In this document: piece after piece, positions 17,818 to 62,674 of the stretch
Position numbering within the stretch: the stretch's first letter is position 1
Layout of the letters: the number at the start of each line of letters is the position of its first letter
From: Bacterioplanoides sp. SCSIO 12839
Lineage (GTDB): Bacteria; Pseudomonadota; Gammaproteobacteria; Pseudomonadales; Oceanobacteraceae
Assembly (NCBI RefSeq): GCF_024397975.1
Contig: NZ_CP073745.1
Span: forward strand, 3,684,501-3,748,500
Reading direction: 5' to 3'
Length of the DNA: 64,000 nucleotides
The notes under the pieces: generated by a model
The model's database searches: none
Told to the model about the DNA's origin: nothing
The model's input: only the letters and a program-made list of their open reading frames with translations
Program-made: the position numbers and the translations under genes

Positions 17818-17850
17818 AAAGCTGCCCAAGCTGGGCTGCTTTAACATTTT
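17818..17850 (+). terminator. Hairpin after the Ig-like lipoprotein
   Basis: Imperfect 11-bp stem (17818-17828 with 17832-17842, one T-T mismatch) and a short T-rich tail, 13 bp after the stop codon. Confidence 0.55.
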
Positions 17851-17861
17851 CGAACGACAAT

Positions 17862-17898
17862 AAAAATGGCAGGCGATATAAAATCGCCTGCCATTTTT
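17862..17898. terminator. Strong bidirectional terminator between convergent genes
   Basis: Perfect 16-bp stem (17862-17877 with 17883-17898) with a 5-nt loop, flanked by A on one side and T on the other. It can serve both the Ig lipoprotein (+) and the pilin (-), whose stop is 31 bp away. Confidence 0.92.
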
Positions 17899-17928
17899 TT
17901 GTTGGAAACCCTGTCTATCAGCAACTAT

Positions 17929-23602: not shown

Positions 23603-23704
23603 AAATATTGATGGTATTGGATGAAGGGGCCCATCACAGGGATGTGATGGATTAGCCTTCAGGGATGAACTTGTAGCGCCCCGCAAGCCAATATCTCAAT
23701 GTTT
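23603..23704 (+). repeat. GGA-hairpin intergenic element A
   Basis: The ends (23603-23620 and 23688-23704) form an imperfect inverted repeat. Inside, 23631-23650 is a perfect 8-bp hairpin, CCATCACA-GGGA-TGTGATGG, and 23658-23669 is TTCA-GGGA-TGAA. GGGGC and GCCCC stretches around them can pair as an inner stem. It matches element B at 58310 over its whole length. It may act as RNA after hemB or as a dispersed palindromic repeat. Confidence 0.8.
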
Positions 23705-23726
23705 CTACAGTGCAGTAATAAAAAAC

Positions 23727-23818
23727 CAGACAGGCTTTAAGCCGCCGCCCCGAACCGGCCATCCATGGCCTATCCGGGCTACCGCAACATCCTGTTGCTG
23801 CTTTTTAAAGCCTGTCTG
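23727..23818 (-). repeat. GGA-hairpin intergenic element C
   Basis: A perfect 14-bp inverted repeat (23727-23740 with 23805-23818) encloses two hairpins. Read on the minus strand these are GCAACA-GGA-TGTTGC (23784-23798) and GGCC-ATGGAT-GGCC (23757-23770). It lies 22 bp from element A, in the opposite orientation, and 24 bp before the ppk1 start. Confidence 0.8.
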
Positions 23819-23842
23819 ATTTCTTATTAATAAGGAAGAAAA

Positions 23843-30495: not shown

Positions 30496-30604
30496 GGTAA
30501 GAGAGTCGTATATTTTTAATAGCAGCAATAGGATGTTGCGACAGCGCAGCGATCACAAGGACGTGGCTTCTGCGCTGCGGCTAAAAATATACTGCTCTCT
30601 TACC
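30496..30604 (+). repeat. GGA-hairpin intergenic element D1
   Basis: A 23-bp terminal inverted repeat (30496-30518 with 30582-30604, two mismatches) encloses two hairpins. These are GCAATA-GGA-TGTTGC (30525-30539) and a GCGCAG...CTGCGC stem (30544-30575) whose tip is CAC-AAGGAC-GTG. It lies upstream of, and opposite to, the TRAP-binding gene. Confidence 0.8.
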
Positions 30605-30617
30605 TAAAATTCTTAGT

Positions 30618-30724
30618 AGTATGCCGGATCATTTTTCTGCCACCGTCCCGAAGGCACATCCATGTGCCTGCCGGACGGATGCAACATCCATGTTGCTGTT
30701 CTCGAAAAACGAATCCAGCATACT
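30618..30724 (-). repeat. GGA-hairpin intergenic element D2
   Basis: Terminal inverted repeat 30618-30637 with 30704-30724 (one bulge, two mismatches). On the minus strand it carries GCAAC-ATGGAT-GTTGC (30681-30696) and GGCAC-ATGGAT-GTGCC (30653-30668), separated by a CCGTCC/GGACGG stem. It starts 15 bp after the uvrD stop in the sense direction, so it would be in the uvrD 3' UTR. D1 and D2 are back to back. Confidence 0.8.
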
Positions 30725-30739
30725 CTCTAGTGAGTTTGA

Positions 30740-56844: not shown

Positions 56845-57025
56845 GATTTTGTGTTGGCTGCTTTTGAGTCGACCGTCTGCCGCAGGGATGCGGCAGTCGA
56901 GCTTACAGGGACAAAACGGCAGGACTGCCGGTTTTGCACAGCGAAGCTGCCCGAAGGGCGAAGTACATGGATGTACTGAGTGATGTATTTACAGCGTGTC
57001 GACTAAAAGCAGCCAAGGCAAAATC
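56845..57025 (+). repeat. GGA-hairpin intergenic element E (largest copy)
   Basis: Long terminal inverted repeat (56845-56873 with 56998-57025, few mismatches) around at least three GGA hairpins. They are CTGCCGCA-GGGA-TGCGGCAG (56877-56896), a CAAAAC...GTTTTG stem with GGCAGGACTGCC at its tip (56912-56936), and AGTACA-TGGA-TGTACT (56962-56977). A 38-bp run at 56874-56911 is identical to the reverse complement of element F. It lies between the HDOD stop and the ubiI stop. Confidence 0.85.
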
Positions 57026-58280: not shown

Positions 58281-58309
58281 CGGTATCTCTTATCACTCAG
58301 CGATTTGAA

Positions 58310-58411
58310 AAATATTGATGGTATTGGCTGTAAGGGTCAATCACAGGGATGTGATTGATTAGCCTTCAGGGATGAACTGGTAGCGCCCTGAAAGACAATA
58401 TCTCAATATTT
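58310..58411 (+). repeat. GGA-hairpin intergenic element B
   Basis: Close copy of element A with ends 58310-58327 and 58396-58411. Its main hairpin, TCAATCACA-GGGA-TGTGATTGA (58337-58358), keeps nine pairs while two of them differ from element A on both arms. TTCA-GGGA-TGAA is at 58365-58376. The GGA strand is antisense to ubiH-ubiI transcription. Confidence 0.85.
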
Positions 58412-59639: not shown

Positions 59640-59669
59640 GAATATGCTCTATCTCGCTTCTGCAACAGC

Positions 59670-59783
59670 CTGAAGGTTGTATCGGATATTTTCTCTCGAC
59701 ACGCTGTGAATACTTCCCTGTAAGCTCGACTGCCGCATCCCTGCGGCAGACGATCGAGCGAATACACCCGACACAACCTTCTG
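59670..59783 (-). repeat. GGA-hairpin intergenic element F
   Basis: Terminal inverted repeat 59670-59685 with 59768-59783 (two mismatches). The main hairpin at 59730-59749 reads CTGCCGCA-GGGA-TGCGGCAG on the minus strand, identical to element E. It lies in the pepP-ubiH gap, sense to their transcription, and shares a TTCACAGCGTGTCGA-like end with E. It lacks E's extra hairpins. Confidence 0.85.
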
Positions 59784-59806
59784 AATTTCCAGAGACAGGG
59801 TAGTGA

Positions 59807-62489: not shown

Positions 62490-62674
62490 TCACGCTCCCT
62501 GGGGTGTTAGCCAGTCAATAAAGACCTGAGCCGATGCTTTTTATTATGGAAGGTTCATTCGTTAATGTGTGCATGTCCGCCCGACGGAAAGCCTGATTTA
62601 ATGTCTGGCCTGCCACCTTGGACCACAGGGTTCAAGGCCTTTATTTATGACAGCGGCACAGTGGGGAGCACCCA
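62490..62674 (+). ncRNA. ssrS: 6S RNA (ssrS)
   Basis: The zapA-fthC gap holds a ~180-nt element with the expected closing stem (GCTCCC at 62494-62499 with GGGAGC at 62664-62669). Conserved E. coli-like blocks are ACCTGAGCCGATG, CCCGACGGAAAGCCT and CCACAGGGTTCAAGGCC. 6S RNA mimics an open promoter and sequesters sigma-70 RNA polymerase in stationary phase. Position and core motifs both support the call. Confidence 0.93.

Follow-up and report, generated by a model that had tools for sequence, protein, structure and literature searches.

REP, BIME and REPIN sequences are short intergenic palindromic repeats, present in tens to hundreds of copies, of which one strand is recognised as a folded single strand, whilst CsrB, RsmY and RsmZ are small RNAs encoded by one to few genes with their own promoter and terminator. 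The third described system that matters here is TwoAYGGAY (Rfam family RF01731), an RNA motif suggested to bind CsrA by, as we presume, Gardner and Eldai. PMC4333381 draws this suggestion from the loop motif and calls the external stem poorly conserved; the earlier note on this DNA gave the function of the motif as unknown. A table of the paper in which the motif was described (PMC2864571) rates it as probably RNA and probably not cis-regulatory, unlike Rfam, which types RF01731 as Cis-reg. PMC9788540 deals with Csr sRNAs of another genus only, and none of the open-access titles and abstract openings listed presents TwoAYGGAY as a repeat scattered over a genome, each copy with a stem of its own.

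The window, i.e., the whole stretch of 64,000 nucleotides analysed, lies within a single-contig genome of 3.9 Mb (G000). The earlier note had singled out in it an element, D2, with two ATGGAT-loop hairpins inside an outer stem, and a second one, C, with one ATGGAT and one AGGAT loop; both were said to fit the description of TwoAYGGAY, and five further elements, with AGGGAT or AAGGAC loops, might widen the motif if D2 belonged to it. As now delimited, the elements are the following.

30618-30729, minus strand: element D2, two GGA hairpins and a three-way junction on a long outer stem (sequence and fold).
30696-30681, minus strand: hairpin 1 of D2, GCAAC-ATGGAT-GTTGC, loop ATGGAT (sequence).
30669-30652, minus strand: hairpin 2 of D2, AGGCAC-ATGGAT-GTGCCT, loop ATGGAT (sequence).
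30704-30724, minus strand: 5′ outer arm of D2, private sequence (extraction and fold).
30618-30637, minus strand: 3′ outer arm of D2, partner of 30704-30724 (extraction and fold).
23707-23838, minus strand: element C, of the same family as D2 (RF01731, above cut-off).
30496-30604, plus strand: element D1, of the D2 family, opposite in orientation to D2 (R1 model).
56845-57025, plus strand: class 2 element, of what looks like a second family, with several CANGGANG hairpins and a long outer stem (ends from the fold).
59668-59785, minus strand: class 2 element (genome matches).
23603-23704, plus strand: class 3 element, of what looks like a third family, with a CACAGGGATGTG hairpin and arms common to its copies (genome matches).
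58308-58411, plus strand: class 3 element (genome matches).

The structure ascribed to D2 is borne out by both sequence and folding. Its two hairpins are perfect, its outer stem is of about 20 bp, and the minus strand of 30610-30732 has a folding energy of -57.6 kcal/mol, where shuffles average -31.3 (z -7.06, with none of 200 as good); two AYGGAY-loop hairpins inside an outer stem are also what the description of TwoAYGGAY calls for. Membership is another matter. The gathering cut-off of RF01731 is 43 bits, which C passes with 50.0 bits (E 3.7e-5 in the 64-kb window) in an alignment that confirms its ATGGAT and AGGAT loops, whereas D2 stays at 34.5 bits (E 0.12 in the 64-kb window and 0.0017 in the whole genome), and D1 and the other four elements are not among the matches listed for the window at E<=10. 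By the cut-off, the assignment thus stands for C and not for D2, which is a below-threshold relative of TwoAYGGAY, grouped with C by a model of our own (R1) trained on both. As for widening the motif, this holds for D1 only, which reaches 71.1 bits with R1 although absent from its training set. The remaining four elements, as we identify them, all carry CANGGANG hairpins and look like two separate families, other than TwoAYGGAY by Rfam. In class 2, the element at 56845-57025 has its core match at 56849-56911, and that at 59668-59785 has 14 matches in the genome, namely itself and 13 partial ones, as is to be expected if arms are private. Class 3 has eight genome matches, the query included, seven of which cover at least 94 of the 104 query positions and one 79.

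C is located between hemB and ppk, 4 nt from the start of the ppk ORF. D1 and D2, the model matches of which are separated by 32 nt, are located between uvrD and the TRAP substrate-binding gene dctP, where D1 covers the initial 33 nt of the called dctP ORF; the conserved part of this ORF begins further in, most relatives aligning across only 327 of its 399 residues. UvrD is 78-83% identical to those of the first 18 named relatives listed, including Thalassolituus, Bacterioplanes and Oceanobacter. Elsewhere in the window there is a 6S RNA at 62493-62671 (plus strand, 93.8 bits), and a below-threshold match to a microRNA family at 17844-17914, a plain terminator-like hairpin, is probably due to chance.

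Treating these elements as a single candidate RNA motif, right for C by the cut-off, misses the main fact, which is that D2, C and D1 are three among 86 or more members of one family, intergenic as judged by crude ORF calls. RF01731 by itself has 38 matches in this genome at E<=10, of which 16 pass the cut-off (C and 15 others), and at the same E it also matches one of 14 control genomes. R1, built from 33 cores with D2 and C among them, finds 89 matches at E<=0.01, of which 86 were extracted for analysis (those dropped are 3831877+, 1154315- and the antisense echo 2518272-). The model scored 150 of 1300 candidates, so that the number of copies is a minimum, in which well-kept ones are favoured.

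Each copy consists of a core of about 60 nt, with two hairpins whose loops are CANGGANG, and of a surrounding stem of about 20-26 bp that differs from copy to copy. The core consensus reads AGC, a hairpin with the loop CAGGATG, GGTA, a hairpin with the loop CANGGATG, then GCGGCGGC, with a T-run to its left and an A-run to its right. As to the GTAG or CGTC tag that REP/REPIN repeats have at the foot of the palindrome, GGTAG is the majority sequence between the two hairpins and lies away from the foot of the whole palindrome. The stems of the core covary: in 12 of their 18 pairs both partners have changed, the cells with such double changes number 76, where shuffles average 16 (none of 500 as high), and the covariation score is 0.387 against 0.114 shuffled. 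About 10 nt beyond the T-run, however, column information drops to about 0.1 bit. The arms match within a copy (median 26 aligned nt at 85% identity; score 9.8 against a null of 5.8), but not between copies: where two copies have cores that agree at 95% or more, which is true of 22 pairs, their arms score 6.1 on average, close to the null of 5.8, and the arms are unrelated in 21 of these pairs, the exception being the pair 2420037/2424367, 4.3 kb apart, with similar arms. In one pair of copies the 59-nt cores are identical and the arms unrelated. Two cores, L219 (G000:3174259-3174402) and L230 (G000:3489052-3489154), are split by a further short stretch whose hairpins are ATGCAGGA-like and ACATGGA-like, which looks like the insertion of a different repeat.

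If such palindromes were kept at the level of the duplex only, mismatches between their arms should look alike on either strand, which is not what the copies show. Read on the GGA strand, the arm mismatches of the 86 copies comprise 262 G.U, 119 A.C and 239 others, an excess of G.U with p 2e-13, and G.U exceeds A.C in 61 copies, the reverse being true in 10, with 15 ties. The ratio G.U:A.C is 99:35 with co-directed neighbouring genes, 88:46 with opposed ones and 58:29 with convergent ones, whilst the four copies between divergent genes, at 8:9, have no excess. In G001, a sister species of the same genus (82-84% DNA identity over ppk and hemB), it is 93:31. Folding gives the same picture, the GGA strand being the more stable in 79 of 86 copies, with an advantage of 8-9 kcal/mol in each of the three gene settings tested and a preference alike for co-directed and opposed genes. 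It also folds better in 23 of 29 copies of the genus g188, and in only three of five single copies from other genera. The prevalence of G.U over A.C on the GGA strand, also where the genes run against it, implies that this strand folds while single-stranded. Neither a process acting on the duplex nor mutation that comes with transcription of the flanking genes would give this asymmetry, which is explained by a single-stranded molecule, RNA or DNA, of the core's own sense strand.

Gene direction itself seems of no consequence to the cores. Amongst the 83 of the 86 copies with two called neighbours (crude ORF calls of at least 100 aa), 31 point with both genes and 30 against both, 18 lie between convergent genes and four between divergent ones, so the transcribed strand is not preferred. 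Close neighbours are another matter, as all eight close pairs in this genome are opposed (one partner being a weaker copy outside the 86). Read off the tables, so are five of five in G001 and nine of nine within 500 bp in the g188 genomes G322 and G212.

The sister species allows the fate of individual sites to be followed. It has 40 counted matches, 31 of them in the regions compared, and 27 of these 31 are at a site shared with G000, which here means that a G000 copy lies no more than 260 nt from where it is projected to be. At a distance of up to 65 nt there are 25 one-to-one pairs, in 17 of which the core has the same direction and in eight of which it is inverted, C being one of the latter. 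Had the two species each lost a different member of an opposed pair, the outcome could look like inversion, but the arms still match in five of the eight inverted pairs (p<=0.02), which makes such loss less likely at these sites; the match of L056/L233 is offset and weak by eye, and the firmer four are C, L012, L033 and L062. In the pair L163/L033 the arms match better if turned along with the core. Nor does simple inversion of one core seem to suffice, since the G001 core has its G000 partner as its best match in six of the 17 same-direction pairs and in none of the eight inverted ones, which means that replacement or conversion is involved, or that the relation is blurred by decay. Cores at old sites thus seem to be replaced or converted as well as turned. 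The identity of a G000 core to another G000 core is only slightly higher at the inverted sites (0.88-1.00) than at the others (0.70-1.00). D1 and D2 are not found at the matching place in G001, nor in the uvrD-dctP gap of 12 other relatives. An extra ORF, which we take from its motif to be RluA-like, occupies this gap on C5 of G001 where G000 has D1 and D2, and in one of the 12 relatives, an Oleispira-like genome, the same gap has, by eye, a different GGA-hairpin element with a long outer stem (L087, 12247-12605).

The two species differ in how well the GGA motifs of their copies are kept. Amongst the gap-free copies of G000, 78 of 81 retain both GGA motifs, as against 14 of 28 copies in G001 (p 1e-7; the 86 copies of G000 comprise these 81, four with gaps and one unaligned, and another set of rows gives 79 of 82), and at the same 25 sites they are intact in 22 copies of G000 and nine of G001. 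Pairing in the three stems of the core remains rather high in G001, at 97, 83 and 93%, the values in G000 being 99.5, 93 and 98%. Each species has one CsrA match, of 90.6 bits. This loss of GGA in the presence of CsrA is better explained by a family that still lives in the lineage of G000 and decays in that of G001 than by a regulator that both species need.

Further afield, R1 matches are patchy, occurring in 24 of 55 genomes, this one included, with mostly few in each. RF01731 was found in 18 of 274 genomes sampled at the level of the class (14 above the cut-off), and 11 of these 18 have at least three matches in a survey that scored at most nine candidates per genome. Private arms are not universal, as copies in g188 (G322, G212) and g6 have arms in common. 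Many second hairpins in g188 have CACGACG in place of GGA, yet these copies share arms and have a copied appearance, so the GGA of the second hairpin is not needed for spread there. G003, a genome of a different genus, has at least 81 R1 matches, all 20 regions examined (L177-L196) belonging to a near-identical repeat of about 200 nt with two GGA hairpins; given its length and shared arms, we regard this as another repeat and not as the D2 family. An exact 23-base core pattern has no match in viral contigs, and in the plasmid collection one 4.9-Mb Aeromonas record matches 57% of the 86-nt query.

Taken together, the copy number, the opposed pairs, the indifference to gene direction, the strand-specific folding and the decay in one lineage suggest a mobile repeat of the REP kind, which is handled in single-stranded, folded form. 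It is somewhat probable, in our estimation, that D2 is a copy of a dispersed, non-coding, mobile-like palindromic repeat with CsrA-type hairpins, and not a lone cis-regulatory RNA. The family would spread and renew its cores via a folded single-stranded stage, be it ssDNA or RNA, and a trans-acting protein would recognise this stage through the GGA hairpins. This way, the hairpins would be the repeat's handle and the palindromic arms its frame, inside which the core could be exchanged or turned round. CsrA/RsmA binding, chemically likely for any transcribed copy, may then be a by-product or an occasional co-option, and not the family's reason to exist.

Movement to new sites must be infrequent, since most of the compared copies of the sister species are at shared sites. 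The Y1/RAYT transposase family PF01797 has no match in G000, five of 14 control genomes being positive, and no clean insertion with target duplication was seen, the spacers of the empty sites examined being too diverged for breakpoints. Insertion by copying of the flank into the opposite arm was sought at gene ends and empty sites and found unsupported: one arm of L221 does overlap the end of a coding sequence, but G001 carries the same element there, so that the overlap gives no direction of copying, and the coding-looking left arm of L017 has a frame of only 45 codons, probably a chance one. It is tempting to speculate, though we hold it doubtful, that the GGA-hairpin cassette is exchanged in either orientation among some 90 privately framed docking sites, through a single-stranded intermediate and without RAYT. 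If true, a core turned in a 5′ leader, such as that before ppk, would switch CsrA-type hairpins on or off an mRNA.

The same copies could be CsrA-binding RNA elements, either cis-acting parts of mRNAs or, taken jointly, a distributed sponge by which CsrA is titrated, a possible reading that we nevertheless rate as unlikely. The maintained folding of the GGA strand, the CANGGANG loops kept in the hairpins of that one strand in nearly all gap-free copies and the single CsrA gene of G000 are all in keeping with it. So are the published suggestion for TwoAYGGAY and the somewhat larger G.U excess next to co-directed than next to opposed genes. The loops of the D2 family presumably fit the CsrA/RsmE consensus, and CL00106, the clan to which Rfam assigns RF01731, is what we take to be that of the Csr/Rsm RNAs. 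Csr/Rsm regulation, however, sits badly with cores that show no preference for the transcribed strand and keep their strand signal with opposed genes. It sits badly, too, with a sister species that has CsrA and has lost a GGA in half of its copies, and with core directions that differ between the two species at the same site. Hairpins at 3′ ends that serve as transcript stabilisers or terminators, a role also suggested for REP sequences, would account for the intergenic location, for the raw count of only four of 83 copies between divergent genes and for the several copies that begin just past a stop codon; but the GGA-strand signal is there with genes on the opposite strand as well, and a plain stabiliser has no need of conserved CANGGANG loops, so this role is very improbable.

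That no selection is involved at all, the palindromes being kept up by template switching between the arms during replication and the likeness of the cores being due to ectopic gene conversion, is a further account. It would explain why arms at the same locus change together, the 15 pairs of G000 and G001 compared for this having 37 double-matched columns, 71 single and 91 other, and why identical cores sit in unrelated arms; inverted repeats are also known to give rise to inversion as a side reaction. A process at the level of DNA is strand-symmetric, though, and the 262:119 of G.U to A.C on the GGA strand speaks against pure neutral upkeep, which could be rescued by a mutational asymmetry that follows the direction of the core. 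We consider this account improbable.

The observations matter in several ways. A motif typed as cis-regulatory in Rfam is a multi-copy repeat in G000, as it is in 11 of the 18 genomes with matches in the sample, and its private arms and turned cores are direct handles on how a repeat spreads. The strand-specific G.U count is a simple test, applicable to other repeats, by which palindromes that work as duplex DNA can be told from those that work as a folded single strand. If CsrA does bind the copies, a mobile repeat would be seeding the binding sites of a global regulator all over the genome.

With TwoAYGGAY, then, the D2 family shares the adjacent pair of A-Y-GGA-Y hairpins in an outer stem, but differs from a motif of Rfam type Cis-reg in being repeated at least 86 times, with private stems and no fixed gene direction. 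It resembles CsrB, RsmY and RsmZ in having several GGA hairpins on one strand; unlike them, it consists of many copies between genes, and the GGA motif is not kept in the CsrA-bearing relative G001, where 14 of 28 copies have both. From REP, BIME and REPIN sequences it differs in the lack of a RAYT/Y1 transposase in G000, in a core made of two GGA hairpins and in a private outer stem. It is with these, nonetheless, that it shares short intergenic palindromes in tens to hundreds of copies, inverted neighbours and one strand that would be recognised when folded, there being at least 86 intergenic palindromes in this genome and eight of eight close pairs inverted.
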